From contig NZ_CP060697.1 in the NCBI RefSeq assembly GCF_014352855.1, forward strand, positions 2,004,001 to 2,068,000: a DNA stretch of 64,000 nucleotides. Direction: 5' to 3'. The translations under genes were made by a program, and so were the position numbers. Shown in pieces: positions 37,312 through 52,775 of this stretch. Under the pieces are notes generated by a model that worked only from the letters and a program-made list of their open reading frames with translations, did no database searches and was not told the DNA's origin. This DNA comes from Sphingomonas sabuli. Its GTDB lineage: Bacteria; Pseudomonadota; Alphaproteobacteria; Sphingomonadales; Sphingomonadaceae. Numbering within the stretch: position 1 is the stretch's first letter; each line of letters opens with the position of its first letter.

Positions 37312-37389
<78 letters not shown>

Positions 37390-37483: not shown

Positions 37484-38785
37484 TTATGCGGCTCTTCTTC
37501 GCTCGTTTGCTGAAGGCTCCCCTCGGCAGCAATCCTTACCAGCGTCCTGTCCAACCTCGCTGCTCTGAGGACAAGCGGCCAAATGCTCGATCACAGCGCG
37601 GCCTACTGATGCTGCCAGTGGCACGGGCACCGCGTTGCCCACTTGCTCATACTGCGCACCGAGGCTCTCGCCGGCGAACCTAAACTTATCCGGGAAGCCT
37701 TGGAGGCGAGCCGCTTCGCGAACAGAGATCGTGCGGTTCTGAGTCGGATGAAGGTAGGCACCCCAGTGGGGATCACACTTGGTCAGAAGAGTTGAAGCGA
37801 AACCTCGTCTCGCTAACCGGCCGTAGCGTTTTGTATGGTCGGTCAGCTTTGCCCGCTGCATCCCTGCCGGAAGCAGGTCGCGTGGAATGTCCCGCCAGTT
37901 TCCGCCCTCGGGGACGTGGATAACCCGGTTTAGGTTCACCGAGGTTAGTCCGTGACAAACGTGGTTGTAGAGCTTTCGGCATCCCCTCCGGGCTTGCCGC
38001 TGGAATCCTGTGAATGCAGAAATTCCGGCGCGATCCGCCACTTGCGAACCGCCTCCGCTCTGCAGCGGCGGCAAATCGCCAATCGCGTCCAGCACGGTGA
38101 CGGTCTTCTTGAGCCCTTTGAGGTCGTGCGTCTTCCGCTTGCGAGGGTTCGCCGGTCTATGAGTGGGCCGCGGCAGCATCGATGCTGGCTCACCCGCTCG
38201 TGTTGCGACGATGAAGACGCGCCTGCGAACTTGCGGCGTGCCGAACTCCTCAGCTGACAGCACATCGAGCGTGGTCTGGTACCCCATACTTCCGAGTTCT
38301 GCGCGAATCGCTGCGACTACGCTGCCGCCGCCAATCGTGAGAATCCCGGGTACGTTTTCCATGACCAGAGTTTTGGGTTTGAGGCCTCTCACAATGCGCA
38401 AATAGTGCTCGAAAAGACGTGCACGATCATCGCTGTCTGAGCGCTGATGGTTGTTGTAGCTGAACGATTGGCAGGGCGGCCCGCCGATTAGACAATCCAG
38501 CTCGCCTTCCGCCAGCGCACACTTCTCGAGAACGAGCCTCGGAGTTAGCTCGGTAACCGAGCCCTCGAAGAACACGGCCTCAGGGAAGTTCAACCTGAAA
38601 GTCGCCGAAGCATTGCTGTCCACGTCGTTCCCGCCGACTACTGTCCAGCCAGCCTGTTTGAAGCCGACGGCCAACCCACCTGCGCCCGCGAACAGGTCAA
38701 GACACAGAGGCCCTCGCGCATCATGTCGGGACTGGGCCGGGTATACAACCATACTCCCGCCGAGCGGGCCGCAAGCAGATTTCAC
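37484..38785 (-). CDS. DNA (cytosine-5-) methyltransferase
   Basis: A 433-residue 5mC methyltransferase with all key motifs. Motif I LDLFAGAGGLAVGFKQAG binds SAM, motif IV GGPPCQSFS has the catalytic Cys, motif VI MENVPGIL has the Glu, motif VIII has QVRRRVFIVATR, and motif X has YEQVGNAVPVPLA. The region from about residue 215 to 350 is the target recognition domain. It starts at GTG 38783-38785 with GGGGGGA four bases upstream; an ATG at 38752 is possible. It is divergent from the ParB-like/SNF2/Vsr/PLD operon, the arrangement of a restriction-modification locus. Target sequence unknown. Confidence 0.95.
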   Translation of the reverse strand: MKSACGPLGGSMVVYPAQSRHDARGPLCLDLFAGAGGLAVGFKQAGWTVVGGNDVDSNASATFRLNFPEAVFFEGSVTELTPRLVLEKCALAEGELDCLIGGPPCQSFSYNNHQRSDSDDRARLFEHYLRIVRGLKPKTLVMENVPGILTIGGGSVVAAIRAELGSMGYQTTLDVLSAEEFGTPQVRRRVFIVATRAGEPASMLPRPTHRPANPRKRKTHDLKGLKKTVTVLDAIGDLPPLQSGGGSQVADRAGISAFTGFQRQARRGCRKLYNHVCHGLTSVNLNRVIHVPEGGNWRDIPRDLLPAGMQRAKLTDHTKRYGRLARRGFASTLLTKCDPHWGAYLHPTQNRTISVREAARLQGFPDKFRFAGESLGAQYEQVGNAVPVPLAASVGRAVIEHLAACPQSSEVGQDAGKDCCRGEPSANERRRAA

Positions 38786-38885
38786 ACCGTCCCCCCAGAG
38801 CTCACATCAGAACAAACATAGAACGATTAGGCGCGGAAGTATAGCCGAACAACGGCGGCCGTCGAGAGCATGTCGAGGTGGCTTG

Positions 38886-38914
38886 CAACACGTGAATGGA
38901 TTTGATACGTGTTG
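38886..38914. promoter_or_regulatory. Inverted repeat CAACACGT-N13-ACGTGTTG, likely operator
   Basis: Perfect eight-base arms (38886-38893 and 38907-38914) in the intergenic space between the divergent methyltransferase and ParB-like genes, 23 bases before the latter's ATG. The position suits control of the divergent defence promoters by a dimeric regulator or by the ParB-like protein itself. Confidence 0.6.
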
Positions 38915-38937
38915 AGCAATCAAAACAGGAGACTTTC

Positions 38938-40164
38938 ATGGCGACCGCAGTTCAAGACGTGGAGATGGCTCCGCAGGTGTTCCGCGAGAAGATCGGAGAC
39001 GTAGAGTGGCTGCTCGAGGAGACGACGCTCGACGTAAATGACGATGTGACCTTGTGGGTAGGCAACCCGCGGCTACGGGCGGTGATCCCCACTGGTCACC
39101 TTCCGGATGAGATTGAGCTTGAAAGTCTGCTGCAGAAGTCGTCGGGGTACGCCGGCTTAGCCAAATCGATCAAAGGGCTCGGGCAGATGGAAGCCATCTA
39201 CGCGTGGCGACCAAACAACAGCTCCAAATACCACGTGTGGGAAGGCGCTACACGCGTGACGATTTTGCGAGATCTCAATCGCAAAGACACGAAGGGCACC
39301 GGCGAGTTTCGTCGGGTGCGCGCCAAGATTCTTCCGCCGAACTTCAGCAAAGCCGAGCGCGCCCTATTGCTGGCGAAGATTCACGTGCGTGGGCCCAACG
39401 TCCGCGGCTGGGGTCGCTTCGAGCAGGCGCAGTTCGTCTACGAGACGACCGAGGGCGTCGGAACTGAGCCGGCCTTGATGACGGCAACCAAGCTTGCCGC
39501 ACAAATGGGTAAGTCCGTTGGATGGGTCACGAAGCTGCGGCAAGCGTACGAATTTGCATGCAAATTCGTCGACCACGTTGACCAAGATGACGGTCAGAAG
39601 ATGGCCGCGGACAATTTCAGCATCCTCGAAGAGATCAGCAATGCGCCAAAGGTCGGGCCAATGCTCCGTGAGTATCACAACTCGCAACACGATGAGCTGC
39701 GGGCTGACGTCTTCGACATGGTGCGCAACGACGTGTTCAAGGAATACCGCAATGCGCGCTTCATGCGCGAGTTCTACGAGGACGGCGACAAGTGGGCACA
39801 GCTTAAAAGCGGTGAGAAGCACATCGCCGATAAATTGGCGGCTGAGCTGAAGGCAAACGCCAGCAGCATGAAAGCCAAGATCGCTGGCCTCGAGAAGCAG
39901 GTTCAGCGTGCGATCGAGCGTAACTCGGCCGAGCTCGATGATACTGATGCCGATATCCTGCGTCGCTGCTCGGCGATGATCGAAGATCAGATCCATGCCG
40001 ACGTGCCGAAGTTCAAACTTGAACTTAAGCGGATAACGCAGGTGCTGACGAGCGCCAGCAAGGCCGACGTGCTCGAACTGTCGACGGCGGAGCTCCAGGA
40101 GTTCAAGGCCGCGCAAGACTATTTCGAGGTGATCCTCGGATTGGCCGCGAAGGTCTCCGCGTGA
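38938..40164 (+). CDS. ParB-like protein of the defence operon
   Basis: A 408-residue protein. Residues ~40-110 resemble the ParB/Srx N-domain: SGYAGLAKSIKGLGQMEAIY, then VWEGATRVTILRDL, matching the V.eG.rRl.Al motif. A helix-turn-helix-like stretch follows (AALMTATKLAAQMGKSVGWV region), and the C-terminal half is long and helical, probably coiled-coil. The ATG at 38938 has CAGGAG eight bases upstream; the frame is open from 38896 (MDLIRVEQ). ParB-type proteins bind and slide on DNA using CTP; some act as nucleases. Its GTGA overlap with the SNF2 gene argues for one machine. Confidence 0.8.
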   Translation: MATAVQDVEMAPQVFREKIGDVEWLLEETTLDVNDDVTLWVGNPRLRAVIPTGHLPDEIELESLLQKSSGYAGLAKSIKGLGQMEAIYAWRPNNSSKYHVWEGATRVTILRDLNRKDTKGTGEFRRVRAKILPPNFSKAERALLLAKIHVRGPNVRGWGRFEQAQFVYETTEGVGTEPALMTATKLAAQMGKSVGWVTKLRQAYEFACKFVDHVDQDDGQKMAADNFSILEEISNAPKVGPMLREYHNSQHDELRADVFDMVRNDVFKEYRNARFMREFYEDGDKWAQLKSGEKHIADKLAAELKANASSMKAKIAGLEKQVQRAIERNSAELDDTDADILRRCSAMIEDQIHADVPKFKLELKRITQVLTSASKADVLELSTAELQEFKAAQDYFEVILGLAAKVSA

Positions 40165-41564
40165 CCACCGCGCTAATGGATCACCAAAAAGAGGGGGTCA
40201 CGTTCCTGACCAATGGTCGGGCAGGCCTCCTCGCCTTCGAACAAGGTCTAGGCAAAACATTAGTCGCTATCGATGCATTTCGTCGGCTGCGAGAAGCCGG
40301 CGAGGCAGAGCGGATGCTTGTGATCTGCCCGAACTCTCTCAAGCGCAATTGGGTCGCGGAGATTGGCAAGTTCGCGCCTGGCTTAACTGTGGAACTTGCT
40401 GAAGGTACGCCTAAGACTCGGCGCCAAACGTTCAGCGCAAGCACGGCTCACGTCCTCGTAACGAGCTATGAAACGGCCAGAACGGAGGTGACTTCGGTTC
40501 TAGCCTTCACGACTGTGAATCGGGTTGTGCTGGTGCTGGACGAATCTCACACTGCAAAGAATTGGCGGTCACTCACCTCAACGGCAATGCGTCACTTCGC
40601 TCCACGCTGCGACTTCCGTTGGCTCCTTTCCGGGACGCCAGTCACGAACACGCCGGCTGATCTTTTTACTCAGATTGAGATTGTCGCGCCGGGAGAGCGG
40701 TCGCTAGGGTCTCTTGAAACTTTTCTGGCACAGGTGGACGCCGACCCGGCCGCTTCATTCGCAAAGCCGGTGCTGGATCGCTTGGTCCTGCGGCGAACGA
40801 AAGACCAGTGCCTCGACCTCCCCGACAAAATATTCAGTGATGTTCTCGTCGACTTGCCGCCCTGGCAGCGAAAATTGTATGATGACATGCGAACGCAGAT
40901 GGTCTGCGAAATCCAGGGAATGTCCGGTGAGCAGTACCGCGCATTTGCGTCCACAGCTCTCGCAAGGCTCACTCGCCTTAGCCAGCTAGCTAGCAATCCT
41001 GCGCTGCTACTTCCTCAGTCGCCGCACGATCCGGCTAAATTTGAAGTGCTTGATGGTCTTTTAGAGGACATTCTGTCGGTACCGGACCGTAAGGTCATCA
41101 TCTGGTCGGCCTATGTCCGGAACATCGAGACACTCCTGCAGCGGTATGCGCACCACCGCGCCGTCGCCCTGTACGGAGCGATCGAAAACTCTGACCGGCA
41201 AGTGCTCGCTGATCGCTTTCAGACCGATGATGACACGCGCGTTTTGATCGCCAACGCGGCCGCCGCTGGTACCGGCTTCACGCTAACAGCCGCCAGCTTC
41301 ACGATCTACGAGTCCATGTCGTGGCGCTACGACCACTATGCCCAGAGTCAGGACCGGAATCATCGGATCGGCCAGTCTCTGCCGGTAAATTATCTCCGGC
41401 TGATAGCGGCTGACACGATCGACGAAGCCGTAGCCCAGGCGCTTGAGCGTAAGGCGGGAATGGCTCGCAACCTGCTGTCCGACGCTGATGTTGGTGCAGC
41501 CTTGAGCCGCCTGTCACCAGAAGAAATGTGCAGCTTGATCGCGACTAGCAGGCTGCCGGAATAA
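40161..41564 (+). CDS. SNF2-family helicase/translocase
   Basis: A 467-residue superfamily II ATPase of the SNF2 type. Motif I is FEQGLGKTLVAIDAF, motif II LDESH, motif III SGTPVTNTP. In the second half, GTGFTLTAASFTIYESMSW and QDRNHRIGQ (motif VI) close the core. There are no extra large domains, so it is a compact translocase. It starts at GTG 40161, overlapping the ParB-like stop. SNF2 translocases power several antiphage systems (DISARM DrmD, BREX-like). In this operon it would move DNA for the PLD nuclease; inference. Confidence 0.92.
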   Translation: MTTALMDHQKEGVTFLTNGRAGLLAFEQGLGKTLVAIDAFRRLREAGEAERMLVICPNSLKRNWVAEIGKFAPGLTVELAEGTPKTRRQTFSASTAHVLVTSYETARTEVTSVLAFTTVNRVVLVLDESHTAKNWRSLTSTAMRHFAPRCDFRWLLSGTPVTNTPADLFTQIEIVAPGERSLGSLETFLAQVDADPAASFAKPVLDRLVLRRTKDQCLDLPDKIFSDVLVDLPPWQRKLYDDMRTQMVCEIQGMSGEQYRAFASTALARLTRLSQLASNPALLLPQSPHDPAKFEVLDGLLEDILSVPDRKVIIWSAYVRNIETLLQRYAHHRAVALYGAIENSDRQVLADRFQTDDDTRVLIANAAAAGTGFTLTAASFTIYESMSWRYDHYAQSQDRNHRIGQSLPVNYLRLIAADTIDEAVAQALERKAGMARNLLSDADVGAALSRLSPEEMCSLIATSRLPE

Positions 41565-41567
41565 CAA

Positions 41568-42002
41568 ATGGCAGACCGCATTTCCGCTCCACAGCGCAGC
41601 GAAAACATGCGCAGAATAAAGGGCGCGCACACGAAGCCCGAGATGATCGTGCGCCGAATGGTCCATTCGATGGGTCGGCGCTACAGACTGCATCGCAAGC
41701 ATCTTCCCGGAAATCCCGACCTGGTGTTCGGGCCGAGCCGCAAGGTCATCTTCGTCCACGGATGCTTCTGGCATCAGCACACTGCCTGCAAAGCCGGGCG
41801 AGTACCCAGTTCAAACTCGCACTACTGGCACGACAAATTGCGCAGGAACGTGTCTCGAGACGCGAAAGCCCAGGAAGAGCTGAAGCGACTTGGTTGGGAA
41901 GTCCTTACCGTGTGGGATTGTGAAACACGGAACACATCGGCGCTCCATGCTCGGTTGGAAGCCTTTTTGTCCTCGTCAACCGAACCAGGAGCAAAGCGAT
42001 GA
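41568..42002 (+). CDS. vsr: Very short patch repair endonuclease
   Basis: A 144-residue Vsr protein. In Vsr order it has RSENMRRIKGAHTKPEM, LPGNPDLVFG with the catalytic Asp, VIFVHGCFWHQH with the zinc/active-site His residues, and RRNVSRDAKAQEELKRLGWE. Vsr nicks next to T:G mismatches left by deaminated 5-methylcytosine, so it normally accompanies a 5mC methyltransferase. Here that is the gene at 37484-38785. Three bases separate it from the SNF2 stop, and it overlaps the PLD gene by four. C-rich motifs fit the zinc site. Confidence 0.94.
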   Translation: MADRISAPQRSENMRRIKGAHTKPEMIVRRMVHSMGRRYRLHRKHLPGNPDLVFGPSRKVIFVHGCFWHQHTACKAGRVPSSNSHYWHDKLRRNVSRDAKAQEELKRLGWEVLTVWDCETRNTSALHARLEAFLSSSTEPGAKR

Positions 42003-43252
42003 GCCCAACGGTCCGAATGTTGTTCGATACACCCCAGCGAGAGATCGCACCTACGCTCCGCGACCTTTATCGCCGTTGTAGCTCTGCTTCGATGATAACG
42101 GGCTTCATGACTGTAGAGGGCGCCAAGGCACTCCATGAGGTTCTCGCTGCCGAACCAGCGAAGCTCAAATCCTTGGTCGTCGGCGCAGGAACCTGGCGGG
42201 CGTTTGATGCCTTTGAAAGCTTGCTCGGCGTCGGGGTCCCAAAAGATCGTCTGCGCGTTCACTTGGGCCACAGCCGGCCCACGGGAGCGTCTGCCAAATT
42301 CGGATTTTACCGCTATCATCCGATGTTGCACTCGAAGGTGTATTATTTCGAGCTGCCGAACAGTCAGTGCGCCGCTGTGGTTGGCTCGCACAATCTTACC
42401 GGTTTCGCTCTGCACGGGCTCAACGGCGAGGCTGCGACTTTGATCGAAGGCCCGGCGGACCATGACGTGTTCGTCGACATTCGCGAGCATATCTCGACCG
42501 CAGATCGCAGCGCTGTCGAATACGATCCGACGCAACGTGAAGCTTATGCGTGGTGGGCCGCTGAATTCATGGAGGGCCTCGCGTCAAAGTTTGACGATCT
42601 TCCGCGTGAAGGCGAGTTCCAAAGAACCATTATTATCGTAGCAGAGGCTGAGCGCAGCCTGCCTTCTCGGGGCGATACAATTTACTTTGAGCTGCCAGCG
42701 GTGCTCGGAAAGATGCAGTCACTCCGTGCCGAGGTGCACCTGTACGTGTTCGACCAACTTCCAAGCGATCCGTCCACCGCCCTCGAGCAGCTGTCGAACG
42801 CGCGGAAAGCGTTCTGGTGCAAAACGGTCGGGATCGAAGATGATCAAGGCGGTCGCGAGTTTCGTGCCGATTGGCACATAACCGATAGCCTGCACCCGAT
42901 AGTGCGCAGAACCGTTCGACCCTTCAGGCCACAGCCGGCGCCCGACATGCAGCAGGTCCGCGTAAAAGTAGTCAACAAGCTATTTGGCGCCTTCGACTAC
43001 GTATTCGACATCAAAGGGCGTGACTTTGAACCATTGTTCGACACTTCGTCGACCGTTCAGGTGGCGCCGGCCGTGCGCGAGGAACTTCATGAGCTGGAAC
43101 TTATCCCGCCCGAAGACCAACCTTGGTTCAAGGTGGTCGGGTTTCAGCCGAAGGTGAGGGACGAAGATGCTGCTTACAAAGAAGCTTTGAGCGCTCTTAC
43201 TCCCGAATCCGGTCGATACGTGCTCATGTCCGCGCTGCGTAGGAAGAAGTAA
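41999..43252 (+). CDS. PLD-superfamily nuclease-like protein (restriction-type)
   Basis: A 417-residue protein with a phospholipase-D-type half-site in its N-terminal third. HPMLHSKVYYFELPNSQ gives H-x-K, and CAAVVGSHNLTGFALHGLNG gives the GSxN and following residues; an acidic E (NGEAATLIEG) is near. A single site implies a dimer, as in BfiI and NgoFVII-type restriction enzymes. The second half (~200-417) has no domain I recognise and may recognise DNA. It ends the ParB-like/SNF2/Vsr operon, with an ATGA overlap to vsr. Role as the cutting subunit is inference. Confidence 0.82.
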   Translation: MSPTVRMLFDTPQREIAPTLRDLYRRCSSASMITGFMTVEGAKALHEVLAAEPAKLKSLVVGAGTWRAFDAFESLLGVGVPKDRLRVHLGHSRPTGASAKFGFYRYHPMLHSKVYYFELPNSQCAAVVGSHNLTGFALHGLNGEAATLIEGPADHDVFVDIREHISTADRSAVEYDPTQREAYAWWAAEFMEGLASKFDDLPREGEFQRTIIIVAEAERSLPSRGDTIYFELPAVLGKMQSLRAEVHLYVFDQLPSDPSTALEQLSNARKAFWCKTVGIEDDQGGREFRADWHITDSLHPIVRRTVRPFRPQPAPDMQQVRVKVVNKLFGAFDYVFDIKGRDFEPLFDTSSTVQVAPAVREELHELELIPPEDQPWFKVVGFQPKVRDEDAAYKEALSALTPESGRYVLMSALRRKK

Positions 43253-43258
43253 CCAACG

Positions 43259-44212
43259 CTAAGCCATGAAGACCTTGCTGCGGTGGTGTTCGAAATATCC
43301 CAAGCTCGCATCGTGCAGCGGCTTGGCCGGCGGTCGCTGGCTATGGTGCAACCCCAGCTTGATGCCATCCGCCTCGGTTAGCCTGGAAGAAAACAAGGTC
43401 GTGCCGTCGTTGGCAAATCCGATGAGTCCGCGATCGAATAGAAAATCCGCATGCGGGGTTAGCATAAGTCCGTTGAAGCCATCGAGCCGTTCAGCGGCCG
43501 TCTCACAAGCGCGCCACGGTTTCACGTGGCTTGCAATCAGCAAGGTGGGTGTTCTGACCCCAGTGACGCGACAAGCCGGTTCTTTGGACAAGACGCGCCT
43601 TCGGAAGAGCCCCTGACCTCGCCGTGCGCGCGTCAACTGATCGCGCGTCGTTTGGTCTAGGTCCTGATCCGCTCGAATTTGCGCTTCAACTGCATCATCA
43701 AATTGCGCGGCAAAGTCCGCGATGGTGATTGTTGGTGTCTCAATCTCGAAGTCCCCAACAGCGAGACCGACCGCCGCGAAAACTATTTCGAAAACTGCTC
43801 GGTCGACCTCGGCGAGATATGCCTTTTGATTGCCGGCTCCGGTTGCGGCTCTGATCGGCGAATGTGTTTGAGGCAAGACGCCGGCGAGCCGACCGATGAT
43901 CGCCTTTGGTTGGACACTAATCTGTTGCTCTAGCCACTGCACGGGAAGCAGCCATCCGGCATCCTGCCAGTACGACCCGATGGATCCGAACTCTGACGGC
44001 TTCGGCGCACTTATGGCAAAGTCGCCGACCACGCCAATGCGACCGATCTTCCCATTCGCGTACGATAGAACCAGATCACCCGGGGACGCCTCCCGCATAT
44101 TGTCGTAAAACTGACTCCGGGCGCCATTCGCTTCGACTACGGGCGACCACAAATAGCCGCCGGTGATCTCCTGCCGGACCGTCTGCGCGTGATTGACCCA
44201 CCAGTAGCGCAT
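43259..44212 (-). CDS. EVE-HNH modification-dependent endonuclease
   Basis: A 317-residue two-domain protein. The N-terminal ~140 residues form an EVE/PUA-like domain: RYWWVNHAQTVRQEITGGYL, then SPGDLVLSYANGKIGRIGVV. These bind modified bases in related enzymes. The C-terminus is an HNH_2-type nuclease: ACRVTGVRTPTLLIASHVKP (Cys/His), NGLMLTPHADFLFDRGLI (Asn, His) and a final helix. EVE-HNH proteins are known or predicted type IV restriction enzymes that cut DNA with modified cytosine. It converges on the PLD gene with a 6-base gap, and is divergent from the RES gene. Confidence 0.88.
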   Translation of the reverse strand: MRYWWVNHAQTVRQEITGGYLWSPVVEANGARSQFYDNMREASPGDLVLSYANGKIGRIGVVGDFAISAPKPSEFGSIGSYWQDAGWLLPVQWLEQQISVQPKAIIGRLAGVLPQTHSPIRAATGAGNQKAYLAEVDRAVFEIVFAAVGLAVGDFEIETPTITIADFAAQFDDAVEAQIRADQDLDQTTRDQLTRARRGQGLFRRRVLSKEPACRVTGVRTPTLLIASHVKPWRACETAAERLDGFNGLMLTPHADFLFDRGLIGFANDGTTLFSSRLTEADGIKLGLHHSQRPPAKPLHDASLGYFEHHRSKVFMA

Positions 44213-44308
44213 GCTTGCCTCTGGCGCATCATCGCCGATTACTGCTCGTTAGCAAAGCGTGATCACCCGGAGCTTGTGCTAGGTAGATTGAGCAGGAAGG
44301 GCTGGAGC

Positions 44309-45751
44309 GTGGCCGAAGAGGATGAAGACGAGAGCGCGCGTGTTTGCAGCAAGTGCATCGCGGAGGATGTGCTGGCCGCAGAAATTCGGTCCGTTGGCCG
44401 GTCGGCCGAATGCGATTACTGCGGCCAGCAGCGCCGGCGGACGGTGACCATCGAGTGGCTCGCCACCCGAGTAGATCCAGTTTTCCAAGCTGTTGTGGGT
44501 CCGGCGCGGGAAGGTTTCATCATGCGTGGCGGTCGCCCGGACTTCGGTCCGGACGGAGACCCCCCGAGCGTTCTAATGAACGAGATGATTGAGGCTGAGT
44601 ACGAAAGTATCGGCGAGGATATCGTCAGTGAGCTTTCCGGTCGGCACGGCTGGGACGTCCACGATGGGGGCTATGACTACTACGATCAAAGCCAGGACAG
44701 CTATGCGATACAGGATGCTGATTCTGGCATTCTCAGGCACCGCTGGAATAGATTCTGTGAAGACTTGAAGCAGGAGAGGCGCTTCTTCATTGATGATGGC
44801 GCCGCTGTTCTCGACGAAGTCCTCGGGCCGCTCGTGGACGGAAATTGGCCCCATGGCGGCGCAATCCGCACCCTCGGTGAGGATGACGCCACGCGATACG
44901 TTTATCGTGCACGACCGGCGAATGACGATGCAGCTTGCCGACCCATCTTCGAGCAGCGTCTGAACCGTCTAGCTGCGCCGCCGCCCGGCGTAGCTGGCGG
45001 CGGTCGAATGAACGCTCCTGGAATCAGCGTGTTCTATGGCGCTTTCGATGCGGAGACGTGCGTTGCCGAATTGCGAGTGCCTGTGGGTGGCGCGGCGATC
45101 GTCGGGCGGTTCGAAATAATCCGCCCGCTGCGAGTGCTGGACCTCACACGACTAGAAGCCGCGCAGCGGCGACTGAGCTACTTCGAGGAAGATTTCGAAC
45201 GGTTACGAAGCTACGCGAGCTTTCTAAGAGGCTTCCACGACGAGATTAAGAAACCAGTGTTGCCGGAGCGCGAGACGCTTGAATATCTGCCGACACAGGT
45301 GGTTGCGGAGTATCTATGGACCCGCGTGGACCCGCCCTTTGACGGCCTTGTGTTTGGGTCGGCGCAGATCAGCGGCGGTCGTTCTAATCTCGTACTCTTT
45401 CCTCATGCATCGGTCGTCGAGGGAGCTGCTGACGAACCGCAACGAGAGGTGAAGTTCAGCTATGAGAGCGGCCCGAACGAGGACGACGAGGATCGTCCAC
45501 TAGAGTTGCACGTGTTCTTTGAGCCGCTTGCGCCGCCGCCCGAACCGGAGAAGCGGGAGCGGTGGCAAGGCATCTTCTCAGAGGAAGACGATGAGTGGTT
45601 CAGCAGCGCTGATAGCGGCGCGGGTGTGCCGCCTCAGCCAGCGCTGAAGCTTGCTGAGGAAGGCGTATCACGGTTGCGCGCGAGTTCGATCCGCTACACC
45701 TTCGAAACCACCGCTGTGACATTCGACGATTGGGACGAGCCGCATTTCTGA
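44309..45751 (+). CDS. HEPN/RES-type toxin-like protein
   Basis: A 480-residue protein. The N-terminus has a zinc-ribbon pair (VCSKCIAED and CDYCGQQR), an arrangement seen in HEPN/RES N-terminal domains, and residues ~60-190 are acidic and helical. The C-terminal RES domain spans ~215-360. It contains GGGRMNAPGISVFYGAFDAE and TCVAELRVPVGG, holding the Arg, Tyr and Glu typical of RES enzymes that destroy NAD+. There is no Xre-like antitoxin next to it. The frame opens at GTG 44189, but GTG 44309 has AGGAAGGG eight bases upstream, avoids overlapping the EVE-HNH start, and leaves room for promoters. Confidence 0.8.
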   Translation: MAEEDEDESARVCSKCIAEDVLAAEIRSVGRSAECDYCGQQRRRTVTIEWLATRVDPVFQAVVGPAREGFIMRGGRPDFGPDGDPPSVLMNEMIEAEYESIGEDIVSELSGRHGWDVHDGGYDYYDQSQDSYAIQDADSGILRHRWNRFCEDLKQERRFFIDDGAAVLDEVLGPLVDGNWPHGGAIRTLGEDDATRYVYRARPANDDAACRPIFEQRLNRLAAPPPGVAGGGRMNAPGISVFYGAFDAETCVAELRVPVGGAAIVGRFEIIRPLRVLDLTRLEAAQRRLSYFEEDFERLRSYASFLRGFHDEIKKPVLPERETLEYLPTQVVAEYLWTRVDPPFDGLVFGSAQISGGRSNLVLFPHASVVEGAADEPQREVKFSYESGPNEDDEDRPLELHVFFEPLAPPPEPEKRERWQGIFSEEDDEWFSSADSGAGVPPQPALKLAEEGVSRLRASSIRYTFETTAVTFDDWDEPHF

Positions 45752-46010: not shown

Positions 46011-48356
46011 TTAGAAGGGCGTCGCCGCTCCCGTGACCGGCTGCCACTCCGTAACGTCACTGTCCCAAGGCAGCTTACAATACATGCGTTCGAACGCGCG
46101 CCTTGCCTCTGCAAGGGCCGGGAACTTCCAGCCACGCGGCGGCCCGTTCTCGCGTTCAGCGCCGATTGCCTTCAAACCTCTCCAGAGGGCCCGTTCGCCA
46201 TCTCGGATGATGCTAGGAACTCGACGCCGAGCATCCTCTGCCAGTCCATAGGTGCCGGGGCCGCCGTGCGTGAAAGCGAAATTTGCGCGTCCGCGCACGT
46301 TGTTCGGCAATTCACCTGCGTCCAGGAGCAACCAGAGGTACTGAGCCACAGGATCCAAGCTCGCCATCTTCTGCTCTTCGAGTGCGGTCGTCCACGGCAC
46401 GTCGCGAGGGTCGAAGTCGGACAGATCACGGCTTCGCAGGAAATGCAGTAAATTCTCACGCCCGCCGTCGGCTAACTCCGAGGCAATTGCATCGAACTGC
46501 GACCGCCCACTCGATCGGTTGAGGCGGGCGTTGAGGACACAGTAGCGGCGCTCGTCGGCCGAAGCAGGAACGACCCAATCATCGTTCGAGGCGACGCCGA
46601 TGTGCAGGAAGTTCGGCGCGGGCTCTGCGTCTATGCCCTTGGCCTCTATAGTCAGGGTAGGCTCGGTGATGAGCGCCTTCAGGATGCTCTCGTGCTTCTT
46701 GTCCCCAGCGAAGAACGCCTCGTCAGCGAACAGGAACACGCAGTCACGTAGGTGTGCGTTGAAGTCGCCAACGAGAAACTTTGGATTGCTCACCTGCATG
46801 AAATGCTGTCCGAAAAGCGAGCCAAGGGTGCGGAAGAAGAAGCCCTTCCCGGTGCCCTTCTCACCCCGGATAACCAATGCAACCTCCCCCGGGGCGTCCG
46901 GGTGCTGCACCATCCTACTTGCCCAGTTCATCACGTAGTCGAATAGCTGCTGGTCGCCGCCGCAGAGATTTTCGCGGACGTGGCGGAGAAATCCCTCATG
47001 ACGGTCGCCCGGGCGGGCATCACAGCCGAAGCCGCGCCACAGGTTGTACTGGTCCGGCGGGACGTCGCGGTTCGGCCAAAAGACGATCTTGCGGTATTGC
47101 CGCCTGTGCTCGTGCATTAGCCACCACTTGCCCAGGGGCATGGTGATAGCGTTGCCCGCCTTGTCTCGACCTATTTCGACGGGACGATGCATGTACCGAT
47201 TACGAAAAGCCTCGAAGCTTTGGTACTTGATGTGCCACCGGCCCATCACGTCATCCCAATCCTCCTCAGCCACCACGCAGCGGCCACCTCGGTCACTCTC
47301 GATAACTGCGTGGCGGGCGTTGAGCTCACGCAAGGCGGGGTTGATCGCCTCCTCACGTGCGGCCGCGATCTGTTCCGCGGCGTATGCTTCAGGTCGAGGC
47401 TTATCGAGAACTGAGGCGCTGATACGGAAGTCTGGGTCCAGGATGACCGCCGCCATGGTGTCGTCGTCGGCCCGGGCGCGGACCATGTCGCACAGGACGC
47501 GCCACAGCACCTCAGATCGGCTGGGGTACTTGGTGGGGTTCTCCGGGTCCTCACCGTTGACGATGAGCATGACCGTGTAGTCCTGCAGCTTGACCGGCAG
47601 GTCGTCCGTGGAGGCGAAGCGGGGCAGGTTACCCCTGATCTCCACCTTTCCGCGGCGGGCGGTGGTGGAGCCAGCCTGCTGCATTTGCGGAGCCGGCGTG
47701 AAGGCGCTGAGCGGGTGCTTCGCCCAGTTCGTCAGCTTCTCTACGAGGCAGGCCGGGGCCTCCGTGCGGCCCTTGGCCTTCTTCTTCTTGTTCGGCACAT
47801 TGATGGTGCCGGGGCAGCGCATGATGCGGTCGACGTTGAAGCAGCTGTCGGCGGCGTACTGCCCCTGGATGGCGCGGTTGTACGCCTCGATCTTCTCCCA
47901 AGCCTCCGGAGTGCCGTCCAGCGTCACCGGCTCGTCCAACAGCCAGAAAGCCTGTATCCCATTTCCAGAATCGAGGACTACACTCGGCGGCGGTTCGTGC
48001 TTGGCTAGTGCCACTATCGCGCGTGCCTTGCAGGCCTCAGGAGCCTCATTCTTGCGCGGGTCGATGTCGACGTGGAGCGCTCGGACGGTGCGAATGTCCT
48101 TCTTCTCCGCCCGCTTGTCGAGCGCCCACCCCGGCTGGTTGACGTGAAAATACAGGTTCTTCTTTGCGGCAACTTCCTTCCGCAGCCAGTCGTGAAGCTC
48201 CGCGGGGTTCTGCGGCCACAGGCACTTAGACGCGATGGCGCCATCGGGCACGATCGAAACTAACTGGCGGGGTGCGTCGCCGTACCAGCGATTCAGGAAG
48301 TCAATCGCAGCTTCGACGTTTCGAGTTGACGCCGCAACGTTGTCAGCGTCGCTCAC
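46011..48356 (-). CDS. Primase-polymerase/helicase replication protein
   Basis: A 781-residue replication protein of mobile elements. The N-terminal ~220 residues look like an archaeo-eukaryotic primase (RepB/PrimPol type): VRALHVDIDPRKNE gives the acidic metal motif, VVLDSGNGIQAFWLLDEPV and DRIMRCPGTINVPNKKKK follow. The C-terminal half is a DUF5906-like SF3 helicase, with Walker A IRGEKGTGKGFFF (about residue 495), Walker B FLFADEAFF and sensor SNDDWVVPASADERRY. It starts at GTG 48354-48356, overlapping the AlpA stop as GTGA. It would replicate the excised element. Confidence 0.9.
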   Translation of the reverse strand: MSDADNVAASTRNVEAAIDFLNRWYGDAPRQLVSIVPDGAIASKCLWPQNPAELHDWLRKEVAAKKNLYFHVNQPGWALDKRAEKKDIRTVRALHVDIDPRKNEAPEACKARAIVALAKHEPPPSVVLDSGNGIQAFWLLDEPVTLDGTPEAWEKIEAYNRAIQGQYAADSCFNVDRIMRCPGTINVPNKKKKAKGRTEAPACLVEKLTNWAKHPLSAFTPAPQMQQAGSTTARRGKVEIRGNLPRFASTDDLPVKLQDYTVMLIVNGEDPENPTKYPSRSEVLWRVLCDMVRARADDDTMAAVILDPDFRISASVLDKPRPEAYAAEQIAAAREEAINPALRELNARHAVIESDRGGRCVVAEEDWDDVMGRWHIKYQSFEAFRNRYMHRPVEIGRDKAGNAITMPLGKWWLMHEHRRQYRKIVFWPNRDVPPDQYNLWRGFGCDARPGDRHEGFLRHVRENLCGGDQQLFDYVMNWASRMVQHPDAPGEVALVIRGEKGTGKGFFFRTLGSLFGQHFMQVSNPKFLVGDFNAHLRDCVFLFADEAFFAGDKKHESILKALITEPTLTIEAKGIDAEPAPNFLHIGVASNDDWVVPASADERRYCVLNARLNRSSGRSQFDAIASELADGGRENLLHFLRSRDLSDFDPRDVPWTTALEEQKMASLDPVAQYLWLLLDAGELPNNVRGRANFAFTHGGPGTYGLAEDARRRVPSIIRDGERALWRGLKAIGAERENGPPRGWKFPALAEARRAFERMYCKLPWDSDVTEWQPVTGAATPF

Positions 48357-49256: not shown

Positions 49257-50267
49257 TCAGATTAGATCAAGGAAGGCGTGCGCAGCGGGGCCGTTGAGCT
49301 GCTTTTCCCGAAGAAACCAGCAACTGCTTAAAACAGCGGGATCCTGATCCTGCAGGGCTCGGAGGATTCGTAGCCGGTCCATCAAAATGACGTTGTCTGC
49401 AGCGGCCTTGTTGACCCACTCGCCGTTTGTTTGTCGGAAGCAGCCTGGAACGAACAGCACACTTTGCGTTCGGACCTTGGTGTGAAAGCGCGAACGATGA
49501 TAATCGAGGTCCGCTTCGGCCCTCTTCTTCTTCCAGCTGTCGTGCTTCTCATGTGCTGCACACTGGCCCAGAAAGACGTTCCAGCCTCCTTGACCGTCGT
49601 CCAACTTCTGGACGCCGACCAGATCGATGCTCGCATCTCCCTGAGCAGCTTCGTCTTCCGACTTCCAGTCCGGAGCCATCTGCATTCCCATGAACTTGGC
49701 GAGCATCGGGAGAGCAGTACGCAAATCCGTATGGAACCGTTTACGGCGGTCGTCTGAGTTTGGTCCGAACATGATCACGTCGGCAGCCGACGGCATCAGT
49801 TTTCGGAGCACATCGCGACTGATCAATTCGAAATAATCAGCTAATTCCTGCGCTAATCCGCGGGTGTTGCGAAAGGTGCGCGTGCGAGATGCGTACAGGA
49901 GGAAAAGATAAAGGCACTGCAGGGGATTGTAGCGCTCCGAAAGCTTTAAGAGGTTTCCATCAACCTGGAATGGGTATGCTGCGCCGAAGGCTCCGCCCCT
50001 GTATTCGAGCTGGCGGAAACACTCCTCCACATAGATCGCGTGCCGTTCGGCCGTGATTGAGGTTGCCTCTTCGTCTGGCACCCCATCGTCATTTAGGTCT
50101 GGTTCGTCTCTGCTGAGGCCTTCCTCGGCAGGTGCGACCGAAGTTGCTATTAACCCCATCGCGTCCGTTGCGGAGACCGGGCCGCCTGTGGCAACGCACA
50201 CTATTTCTAGCGTGTCAGCGAACAGATGAGGTTGAGTCTTATCGACTCGACCGAGGTCAATCTGCAT
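49257..50267 (-). CDS. Island protein with possible variant PD-(D/E)XK nuclease core
   Basis: A 336-residue protein, no close family name known to me. The middle, residues ~205-245, reads DASIDLVGVQKLDDGQGGWN then VFLGQCAAHEKHDSW. This fits the D...(E/Q)xK layout of restriction-type nucleases (strand-D-V, then strand-Q-x-residue), but the usual Lys is Cys in GQC. The C-terminal part is helical with RLRILRALQDQDPA. Its ATG overlaps the ParB-like stop by 11 bases, so the two are translationally linked. A nuclease or recognition role is inference. Confidence 0.62.
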   Translation of the reverse strand: MQIDLGRVDKTQPHLFADTLEIVCVATGGPVSATDAMGLIATSVAPAEEGLSRDEPDLNDDGVPDEEATSITAERHAIYVEECFRQLEYRGGAFGAAYPFQVDGNLLKLSERYNPLQCLYLFLLYASRTRTFRNTRGLAQELADYFELISRDVLRKLMPSAADVIMFGPNSDDRRKRFHTDLRTALPMLAKFMGMQMAPDWKSEDEAAQGDASIDLVGVQKLDDGQGGWNVFLGQCAAHEKHDSWKKKRAEADLDYHRSRFHTKVRTQSVLFVPGCFRQTNGEWVNKAAADNVILMDRLRILRALQDQDPAVLSSCWFLREKQLNGPAAHAFLDLI

Positions 50268-51318
50268 TGTTCTCGTCGAACGCAGTTTTGAGGTTCCGCG
50301 CCTGTCTCTCGATCGATGTGACAGTCGCGGCGCGCGGCTCAGAGTAATGTACTTCCGCGACGATCGAGTTTGCGGTTCTTAGAGAACTCTGAACCGACAC
50401 GATTATGGAGTCGAATTCCTCGTCAATGCCGTCTGTGAATCTATATGCTTGATCTAGATCCATACCCCGGCGAAATTTCTCAAGTGCGTCGGGATTCGAA
50501 ACGACCCTAGACAACTGAACGAGGTTTCGTGACTCTCCTAAACGTGTTCTTCCTTGTTCGTGCTTGACGAACATCCAAGAGAATAGTTCGCGAAGCCGAT
50601 CCTGATTGATTACTCGCTGATCGACCGGGTCATCGGGGTTATCGTACACAAAGTTCTGAATACCATCGTAATCTAAAGCGGTGGACAAAAGTGAGAACTT
50701 AACAGACTCCTCGTCCACATCTGGAAGATCGAAGAACTCATGGTGCGCCGCGACTTCGTATGCATCGTGCGCCTTAAGGGCGCGCGTAATAAAATCGGTT
50801 CTACTCCCAATGGTTCGAGCGACAGCTCTGGCACGTTCGTTGAAGTCGGCTCCATTGGCAACCTCGAAGAGCTGCCTTGCATAGCGCGCCTTCGCAAGCG
50901 CCCCCCATGGTTTCACGCCGGCGATGTGTTTGTTGCCCAGATAATTTAGAACATCCGCGCGCGCATCGTATATAGCAACGGGGACGATTGCCGGACGGTG
51001 CGCAGCCCGTTCAACGGCCTGTGCAATGCGCGCGGGCATATCATCGAAGCGCTCGCCCAAGAGAAGTTTAAGAGCAGTAAGGCGCCGGTTGCCCTCGATG
51101 ATGGTGATTCTGCCCTCGGCTGTAGCGACACCGATTAGAGGCTCCGACTCGAAGTAACCATTTGAACCTATGGCGGAGACTATCTCATCAATTGAAGATG
51201 TCAGAGCGAGGTATCGAAGCATCTCGTCAGGTGCGCGGGGCAAGCCGCTAGGAAGCCTTGGATTTTCTGGGTCCAAGTCGAGCTGATCTACCGGTAATTG
51301 TTCTAGAGTTCTGAACAT
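50257..51318 (-). CDS. ParB/Srx-domain protein, second in the island
   Basis: A 353-residue protein from ATG 51318. Residues ~5-80 hold a ParB/Srx domain: LPVDQLDLDPENPRLPSGLP, then ITIIEGNRRLTALKLLLGER, the vieGnrRltAlk motif. The remainder is helical with a conserved-looking GNKHIAGVKPWGALAKARYA segment. GC content here is clearly lower than in the flanks. TTG 51399 is an alternative that adds 27 residues, but has no ribosome-binding site, while AGG lies five bases before ATG 51318. It overlaps the variant-nuclease gene, so they form a two-gene module. Confidence 0.8.
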   Translation of the reverse strand: MFRTLEQLPVDQLDLDPENPRLPSGLPRAPDEMLRYLALTSSIDEIVSAIGSNGYFESEPLIGVATAEGRITIIEGNRRLTALKLLLGERFDDMPARIAQAVERAAHRPAIVPVAIYDARADVLNYLGNKHIAGVKPWGALAKARYARQLFEVANGADFNERARAVARTIGSRTDFITRALKAHDAYEVAAHHEFFDLPDVDEESVKFSLLSTALDYDGIQNFVYDNPDDPVDQRVINQDRLRELFSWMFVKHEQGRTRLGESRNLVQLSRVVSNPDALEKFRRGMDLDQAYRFTDGIDEEFDSIIVSVQSSLRTANSIVAEVHYSEPRAATVTSIERQARNLKTAFDENNAD

Positions 51319-51429
51319 GAGTGCCTGGATTTCTGAATCTGCGTGGAGGTCCGCTAGCGCGAGCCGCCCGTTCGTTGAAAGCCGTTCGCCCTCGGGCAAG
51401 TCGCGGTGCCAATCCGAGTCGGCGCCAAG

Positions 51430-52584
51430 CTAGCTTTTACTAGGCTCCTTTAGCAACTTCGCCCAGGTCGCCAATGCCAAGCGCCGCTCCTTCATCCGCT
51501 CATAGCGATCGTACACCCCGAGCAAGCCTGACAGCTGGTGACCCAGGACGAGCTCAGCAGTCATCGCGTCCACACCCGCTCTCGATAGCTGCGTACGGAC
51601 CGTCCTCCGGAAGTCGTGGATGACGAAGGTCGCAAAGTCTTGCGGGAGCGACTTGTCCAGCTTCTTCTTCGCCTTCGAGAATCCCGACACCGGCCGCGCG
51701 CCATTTGTTGTCGAGAATAGGTAAGGTCCCTCTTGTGACGGCAGTGAACTCATGATTTTTGCAGCCGCTGGGGGAAGTGGCACCACATGCGGTCGGCCGT
51801 TTTTCCGTTCGCTCCCTGGTACGATCAGCTCGTCACCATGCAGCCAGCCGCGCCTGGCGCTTGCGATCTCTCGTAAGCGGCAACCTGTCAGCAACAAGAG
51901 CTGGTAAATGGGCCCGAAGGGGTAACCCAGCTGAGCAGCGGCAGCGTAAACCTGCTTTGCCTCTCCGAGCGTGAGGGCCCTTTCCCGCGGCTTCATAGCG
52001 ATCCTGAGACGCATGCCGGCAAACGGATTGACCTCCACAAAGCCGTGGTCGGCGGCCCAGTTGAACATCGCGACAACTTGCTTGCGGACCTCAAACTGCC
52101 GAGATGGCGCAAGCGGCTGTAGCAGCTGAGCGAGTTCTCCGCGGGACAGGCTGCTGAGGTCGCGTCGACCCCATTTTGGCTCAACATAGTTCTCCAGAAG
52201 GCGCCTCTTTTCACGCAGCAGCTTCACCTTCACGTTGTCGCAGTAGGCGGCGATCAACTCCTTTACGGTCGTCGGCTGTCGACTCGACGGCGGGCGGGGC
52301 TCACTGCCGCTGAGTGCCTTGGCCCGAATTGCCAACGCAGCAGCTCGGGCTTCGGCCAAGGTCATTGCCGGCCAATAGCCCAGAGTGATACGCCGTTTAG
52401 CGCCGGCTCTGTTCCTGCCAAGAACCGGATCGAAGTCACCTCCGGCGGCCACCCGATACGTCACGCTCCAGCTCTTGCGTCCATCTGGCGACACTCTCAG
52501 GGTCAGGCCATGGCCGTCCGGCAGTTCAACACGCTTTCCAGGCAGAGGTCGAGCATTCCGAACCTTCACATCAGTCAAAAGCAT
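51430..52584 (-). CDS. int: Tyrosine-type integrase, P4-like
   Basis: A 384-residue integrase. The N-terminal DUF4102 arm-binding domain (LPDGHGLTLRVSPDGRKSWS) is followed by the core-binding SAM-like domain and the catalytic domain. The active residues are Arg in LLLTGCRLREIASAR, His-x-x-Arg in IHDFRRTVRTQLSRAG, His in ELVLGHQLSG, and Tyr in GVYDRYERM. The frame opens at TTG 52632, but the ATG at 52584 gives MLLTDVKVRNARPLPGK, the standard N-terminus, with GGAAGGG upstream. It lies 141 bases from the right repeat and should recombine the two att sites. Confidence 0.95.
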   Translation of the reverse strand: MLLTDVKVRNARPLPGKRVELPDGHGLTLRVSPDGRKSWSVTYRVAAGGDFDPVLGRNRAGAKRRITLGYWPAMTLAEARAAALAIRAKALSGSEPRPPSSRQPTTVKELIAAYCDNVKVKLLREKRRLLENYVEPKWGRRDLSSLSRGELAQLLQPLAPSRQFEVRKQVVAMFNWAADHGFVEVNPFAGMRLRIAMKPRERALTLGEAKQVYAAAAQLGYPFGPIYQLLLLTGCRLREIASARRGWLHGDELIVPGSERKNGRPHVVPLPPAAAKIMSSLPSQEGPYLFSTTNGARPVSGFSKAKKKLDKSLPQDFATFVIHDFRRTVRTQLSRAGVDAMTAELVLGHQLSGLLGVYDRYERMKERRLALATWAKLLKEPSKS

Positions 52585-52725
52585 TTCGGGGGCCCTTCCG
52601 GGGCCGTTTGAGCTAGGCTGTCGCGGGCTCAAACGGGTCTTCGAGAGACCCTATAGCTATCCAACTGATTGAAATCTATAGACAGGAAGAGACGTGGAGA
52701 AACGCAGTGGGATTTCGGGCCTGCG

Positions 52726-52775
52726 CCTTGGTAAGGCTGAGGTCGTGAGTTCAATCCTCACCGGCAGCACCATTT
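52726..52775 (+). repeat. attR: second 50-bp direct repeat of the tRNA-Thr 3' part
   Basis: Identical to 37340-37389. No tRNA 5' half precedes it, so this copy is only the displaced 3' end. A hairpin CCCGCTT-GCC-AAGCGGG follows at 52796-52812; it has a T-run only for the minus strand. Confidence 0.95.

Follow-up and report, generated by a model that had tools for sequence, protein, structure and literature searches.

A candidate restriction-modification cassette with a ParB-like protein, an SNF2 ATPase and exchangeable nucleases on a tRNA-integrated island of Sphingomonas sabuli

The stretch of DNA analysed here, in the following called the window, comprises 64,000 nucleotides of Sphingomonas sabuli (contig NZ_CP060697.1, positions 2,004,001 to 2,068,000). 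It contains a 15.4-kb island with an integrase, inserted in a tRNA-Thr gene and bounded by perfect 50-bp repeats, which carries a cassette of five genes (Table 1). As a first-pass annotation had claimed, a 5-methylcytosine (5mC) methyltransferase gene is divergent from four genes on the other strand, coding for a ParB-like protein, an SNF2 ATPase, Vsr and a phospholipase D (PLD)-like protein. The open frames of the window confirm these five genes at the positions given there, all of them intact, as well as their joins: ParB and SNF2 as well as Vsr and PLD overlap by four bases, and SNF2 and Vsr are separated by three. The identities of SNF2, Vsr and the methyltransferase likewise hold in Pfam (Table 1), and Vsr scored 139.6 bits against TIGR00632, above the family cut-off of 97.85. 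With the methyltransferase, recognised by both Pfam and NCBIfam, the modification enzyme of a type II restriction-modification system is present; its best matches by sequence in the PDB were eukaryotic DNMT1 entries, followed by the HaeIII and HhaI methylases. No nuclease domain was matched in the SNF2 protein in domain searches. For parB an alternative, longer frame starts with ATG at 38896, but the start at 38938 is preferred because the homologues comprise about 408 amino acids. Altogether, the genes probably represent, as judged from their sequences, a restriction-modification-type defence cassette in which ParB and SNF2 form a chassis for interchangeable nucleases.

A profile (A1) was built from 22 ParB-like sequences, that of the window and 21 from the best 120 of 239 homologues. 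Scanning 84,980 species genomes with this profile revealed at least 16 loci, which is a lower bound since only two peptide patterns were used. In 15 of these 16 loci the SNF2 gene directly follows parB in the same direction and a C5-methyltransferase gene is located nearby, the ParB-like proteins of these loci being 46-52% identical to that of the window. The same arrangement was found on a contig of the viral collection (L024), resulting in 16 of 17 loci. The linkage of ParB, SNF2 and methyltransferase thus exceeds chance. Fifteen loci were usable for further comparison: one locus on a 3.2-kb contig (L013) was counted for the linkage only and not for the nuclease slot, and L017 lacks the partners. 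The methyltransferase gene is the direct divergent neighbour of parB in 13 of the 15; the two are separated by a gene of the NotI family in L010, and by such a gene plus a further one in L015. Vsr is a common but optional part, present in ten of the usable loci (L003-L008, L010, L011, L014 and L024), and the contig of L015 stops shortly after SNF2, which bears on this count. The co-occurrence check proposed in the first-pass annotation therefore came out in part as expected, since methyltransferase, ParB-like protein, SNF2 and usually Vsr were found together in a mostly fixed order, while the sequence available for the 17 other loci showed no PLD gene. Among 61 relatives, the SNF2 protein was found at E<=1e-60 only as the window's own copy. 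The collection of viral contigs contained 72 SNF2 loci, of which one (L027, on the contig of L024) is close, while identity does not exceed 38% for the other 71. The ParB-like protein gave no match in the plasmid collection or the phage collection. Some records are not independent: G294, L018 and L022 showed the same scores as L002, and G176 and L020 the same as L017.

The last gene of the window operon shows only a weak match to RE_NgoFVII (8e-4, 19.2 bits, below the cut-off of 23.8). In an alignment of 25 PLD proteins including that of the window (A3), however, all 25 match RE_NgoFVII at E<=0.01 (best 4.1e-9), residues H111, K113, S130, N132 and E144 are invariant, and no Pfam family beyond the two PLD ones was matched at the same threshold. 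The first-pass annotation had taken PLD as a fixed part of the system. This view had to be given up: no copy was found in the stretches examined of the 17 other loci, which rules out PLD as a core component, other nucleases occupy the slot, and members of the PLD family were seen in other settings, namely after a GmrSD gene (L025) and near genes that we read as type I restriction-modification-like (L026). In 398 phylum genomes only the window's own PLD was found at E<=1e-30, and the plasmid collection gave no match. Two close PLD homologues and two ParB homologues, compared by eye among the best 120 each, show longest contigs of equal size (13,990 and 7,228); judged solely by these sizes, the PLD version of the cassette may recur elsewhere.

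Ten of the 15 usable loci possess a nuclease within or next to the cassette, one of them (L007) by our own reading only. GIY-YIG-like proteins (MUG113/T5orf172) occur in L003, L005, L006, L014 and L024, where the call is based on Pfam for L005 (above cut-off) and L003 (below cut-off), and on 71-76% similarity to L005 for the other three. The slot of L008 is filled by an HNH_2 nuclease related to an HNH protein of the window (Table 1), L002 contains an Mrr_cat nuclease beyond the methyltransferase, and NotI-family nucleases were identified in L010 (5.7e-97) and L015 (1.2e-12). A protein without database match, which we read as HNH-like, is the sole nuclease in L007 and is also present in L005 and L006.

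The exchange may extend beyond the nuclease. In L010, the genes for Vsr, methyltransferase and NotI are located on one strand and those for ParB and SNF2 on the other. Its methyltransferase shares 63% identity with the enzyme of L015, which likewise carries NotI, compared to 49-55% for the other 14. For its SNF2 protein the identity amounts to 54% with L015 and 65-77% with the rest, and in the tree the ParB of L010 clusters with that of L007 (support 100/99). Since the methyltransferase pairs with L015 and ParB and SNF2 pair with the others, the simplest reading of this single case would be a joint replacement of methylase, Vsr and nuclease by a NotI-type set, with ParB-SNF2 kept. Residues 241-330 of the methyltransferase, chosen by eye as the recognition region, show 56-71% identity to the window in the 13 non-NotI loci and 44-46% in the two NotI loci. 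As this region is similar in the 13 loci though their nucleases differ, the methylation site is presumably similar among them, and specificity would not be set by the nuclease alone.

Just upstream of parB, the palindrome TTGCN4GCAA is present in 11 of the 17 loci, whereas 300 single-base shuffles gave 0.05 on average and never more than 1, a figure that flatters the motif because it was picked from the same sequences. In a slightly wider region a perfect copy was found in 12 of 16 loci, and the consensus adds a half-site 10 bp upstream. Strict matches amounted to 0-4 per genome in eight genomes (control pattern 0-11), and four of them are cassette sites by coordinate (L003, L010, L011 and L012). 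With few copies per genome, about one per cassette, the palindrome of the relatives is therefore probably an operator and not a dispersed loading site, such as might serve the recruitment or sliding of ParB that the first-pass annotation had supposed. The window itself shows an 8-bp inverted repeat (CAACACGT at 38886-38893 and ACGTGTTG at 38907-38914), which is weak on its own since 56 of 2000 shuffles also give such a repeat.

The window ParB-like protein gave no significant match in Pfam or NCBIfam. Among the 22 members of A1, Pfam at E<=1 yielded weak matches to KorB in five (best 0.0046) and to ParB_N in three (best 0.11). A profile of nine ParB-like sequences aligned with 21 canonical ParB proteins in hhalign in a collinear, though weak, manner (E 2.4e-4, probability 43%), compared to E values of 0.46-0.52 for two control profiles. 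The same profile reached probabilities of 96-98% against seven plasmid ParB-like proteins from Bradyrhizobium, Rhizobium and Roseomonas, one of which matches HTH_ParB above cut-off, and A1 reached 97.5% against one of the seven. With regard to a putative CTP/NTP binding, E102, G103 and R106 of the EGxTR motif are invariant in the 22 aligned sequences.

Of the seven plasmid records found, five were examined (L023 and L130-L133); H5, which nearly duplicates H4, was left out, as was H8. In all five, an SNF2 gene and the gene of a small protein are flanked or preceded by genes that are ParB-like or annotated as ParB. The small protein shows a PD...EAK pattern in the three that were read (PD-(D/E)XK-like by our reading) and no Pfam match in the two that were tested. 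These modules adjoin a DGQHR (DndB-like) gene together with ATP-binding and radical-SAM-annotated or unnamed genes; the one ATP-binding protein tested proved to be a GHKL ATPase, and the radical-SAM match there lies below cut-off. Possibly, the plasmid module is another modification-linked defence system. In a genome belonging to the genus of the window (L135, 7454-15054), the gene of a ParB relative is located, together with an HNH-like gene, beside DndB/C/D-like and cysteine-desulfurase-like genes, all named from their translations. Both contexts speak for the reading with ParB as part of a chassis. The window also contains a second ParB-like gene (ParB2, 50257-51399), which overlaps an unmatched gene (49257-50267). 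A ParB2 homologue with 29% identity, likewise overlapping an unmatched gene of similar size, adjoins the cassette of L004 (13474-15637). ParB2 reached an hhalign probability of 88% against the first ParB family and 7% against canonical ParB, and the two overlapping genes are possibly a separate two-gene unit.

A described system with exactly this gene set was found neither in Pfam, NCBIfam and PADLOC 2023 nor in the open-access literature covered, subscription journals lying mostly outside that scope, which agrees with the first-pass annotation. On the best reading, the nearest described relatives are the SNF2/methylase/Vsr systems of Iyer 2008 and not DISARM, with ParB here in the place of the MORC ATPase. 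According to the main text of that study, the MORC/paraMORC restriction-modification operons comprise an SWI2/SNF2 helicase, mostly a cytosine methylase, Vsr and an HNH or EcoRII-like nuclease (PMC2292703). An SNF2 helicase with cytosine methylase, Vsr and a nuclease are all present in the window, whereas the cassette contains a ParB-like protein, which that main text does not mention, instead of a GHKL ATPase (PMC2292703). No GHKL/MORC ATPase was matched among 12 island proteins. In the main text of a 2025 survey of the ParB fold, SNF2 does not occur (PMC12704722). Dnd phosphorothioate systems also combine a ParB-superfamily protein, DndB, proposed in the open-access text as an ATP-dependent regulator, with a modification module and nucleases (PMC10853773), but no Dnd genes were recognised in the window island. 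Methyltransferase, SNF2 and ParB classes are further combined in DarB-type methyltransferase-SNF2 and DdrB-type ParB polyvalent proteins, described in the open-access text as large fused proteins of phages and mobile elements with an adenine methylase, while the cassette consists of separate genes with a C5-methyltransferase and a nuclease slot (PMC5512222).

Several observations weigh against the reading as a defence cassette with a ParB-SNF2 chassis. The most divergent ParB-like protein, that of L017 (40% identical), occurs without SNF2 and methyltransferase partners. A survey of 385 class genomes gave little independent support, as ParB was found in three and SNF2 (E<=1e-70) in two of them, the window's own genome being included each time and the second SNF2 genome (G294) apparently being that of L002, just as G176 is apparently that of L017. 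The evidence for the ParB fold is of moderate strength, and the comparison with the PDB gave nothing useful, with no ParB among the matches. Concerning the swap, the methyltransferase of L010 forms a long branch, as do ParB and SNF2 of L015, and residues 201-240 of the methyltransferase, outside the chosen stretch, are more variable (33-56% identity and gaps). The palindrome was chosen post hoc, so that its count is a description more than a test; it is found neither in the intergenic region of the window nor in L015, and it speaks for regulation no less than for loading. Finally, five of the 15 usable loci (L004, L009, L011, L012 and L016) show methyltransferase, ParB and SNF2 without a recognised nuclease family in the slot, where the negative for L009 is limited by less than 1 kb of sequence beyond the methyltransferase; a GmrSD_N gene is located near the cassette of L004 and a DUF3800 gene near that of L012. 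These five loci and the operator-like palindrome before parB in 11 of 17 loci would fit a system mainly for methylation, in which ParB is merely a regulator resembling DndB or C-proteins, SNF2 helps the methyltransferase to reach its sites and the nucleases are loosely attached passengers. HELLS/DDM1 with DNMT1 is a parallel for an SNF2 protein assisting a methyltransferase, and DNMT1 is the best PDB match of the window enzyme. This explanation deserves attention but appears rather unlikely to us: a nuclease accompanies two thirds of the usable cassettes, methyltransferase, Vsr and NotI were apparently swapped together in L010 while ParB-SNF2 stayed, and the plasmids combine ParB-like, SNF2 and small PD-(D/E)XK-like proteins, with no C5-methyltransferase annotated in the five stretches, for which the gene table is incomplete.

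Regarding an ordinary type II system, PLD would be a sequence-specific NgoFVII/BfiI-like enzyme matched to the methyltransferase, with ParB and SNF2 as unrelated neighbours. The match of all 25 aligned PLD proteins to RE_NgoFVII, which corresponds to the NgoFVII N-terminal domain, and the NotI-family enzymes of two relatives speak for such a system. However, the nucleases of the cassettes are tied to ParB-SNF2, a pair whose linkage persists in 15 of 16 loci despite changing nucleases, and PLD is missing from the 17 others. NgoFVII/BfiI enzymes carry a B3-like C-terminal domain for DNA recognition, whereas the PLD protein is without a second Pfam domain, and we consider this explanation improbable. 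Still far less probable is a relative of DISARM, with which the cassette shares the C5-methyltransferase, SNF2-type helicase and PLD classes. The methyltransferase indeed matches DrmMII models and SNF2 weakly matches DrmD, but the former scores higher to MTase_II and DruM and the latter to ZorD and DpdE. DISARM is defined by drmB (DUF1998) and the drmA helicase, and neither DrmA nor DrmB was found among 12 island proteins with Pfam or among eight with PADLOC (best 25 of 64 methyltransferase matches and best 25 of 40 SNF2 matches), as the first-pass annotation had stated; DISARM was therefore rejected. PADLOC also gave a weak PD-Lambda-5_A match (4.1e-5), a name that appeared in no paper listed by a literature search requiring two terms.

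The island shows a G+C content of 0.586 compared to 0.665 in the remaining window. Apart from a remote relative in G752 (60 bits), no member of the ParB family was found at E<=1e-10 when 30 further genomes of this genus, incomplete ones among them, were searched. In G765, G770 and G773 the matches of the left and right flanks adjoin, with tens of bases between them, which therefore indicates an empty insertion site. A gene for a HEPN/RES-domain protein (44189-45751) is divergent from the HNH gene and overlaps its start. A DUF5906/VapE-like protein is encoded at 46011-48356, and its partial homologues near the cassettes of L005, L008 and L024 (29-39% identity) suggest related carrier elements.

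Table 1. Features of the island in window coordinates; a dot marks features without strand.
Feature	Position	Strand	Remarks
Left 50-bp direct repeat of island	37340..37389	.	100% identical to 52726-52775; 3' part of tRNA-Thr 37312-37386 plus 3 bases
5-cytosine DNA methyltransferase, divergent from parB operon	37484..38785	-	DNA_methylase 2.7e-65 (Pfam)
Divergent intergenic region, 152 bp	38786..38937	.	8-bp inverted repeat, possible operator
ParB-superfamily-like protein	38938..40164	+	EGxTR motif in N-terminal ParB-like domain; helix-turn-helix region and long C-terminal part
Compact SNF2-family ATPase	40161..41564	+	SNF2-rel_dom 3.4e-35, Helicase_C 1.6e-13
Vsr mismatch endonuclease	41568..42002	+	Vsr 8.8e-26; aligns to Vsr structure 1cw0
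Single-HKD PLD nuclease-like protein, nuclease slot	41999..43252	+	Weak RE_NgoFVII match
HNH_2 nuclease, possible second effector	43259..44212	-	51% identical homologue fills nuclease slot of L008
Tyrosine integrase, far end from tRNA-Thr	51430..52632	-	
Right 50-bp direct repeat of island	52726..52775	.	100% identical to left repeat

For the preferred reading as a defence cassette, the following mechanism is proposed. Based on their families, the C5-methyltransferase would label the cell's own DNA at a single type of site, and T:G mismatches originating from deaminated 5mC would be repaired by Vsr. The conserved chassis would be made up of two genes, parB and that of the compact SNF2 ATPase. 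According to the superfamilies, ParB may be a DNA-binding switch that responds to nucleotides, and SNF2 a translocase on double-stranded DNA. In most relatives ParB probably also controls its own operon via the palindromic operator. Together, presumably in a complex, ParB and SNF2 would license or position an interchangeable nuclease on unmethylated DNA, here PLD and perhaps also HNH. This joint action is suggested by the linkage of the two genes and the swapping of nucleases; control would run from the chassis to the nuclease.

More tentatively, ParB-like proteins, often with SNF2, could be a general switch-and-motor chassis of prokaryotic restriction, in which the choice of the DNA to be cut would lie with the chassis and not with the nuclease. 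The chassis would accept various nucleases (PLD, GIY-YIG-like, HNH, Mrr, NotI and small PD-(D/E)XK-like) as well as several kinds of marking (5-methylcytosine, Dnd-like phosphorothioation and the module of DndB, radical-SAM and GHKL proteins) without losing its identity; taken as one joint claim, this is conceivable but doubtful.

The ParB superfamily is known mainly from chromosome segregation. The relatives provide natural swap comparisons, as similar methyltransferases occur with different nucleases and, in one case, the same ParB-SNF2 pair with a different methyltransferase-nuclease set. Furthermore, this bacterial cluster pairs an SNF2 ATPase with a methyltransferase for which DNMT1 is, by sequence, the best match among proteins of solved structure. 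If the proposed reading is true, the cassette would represent a further restriction architecture with a fixed core of a ParB-like protein and an SNF2 motor and with replaceable nucleases.

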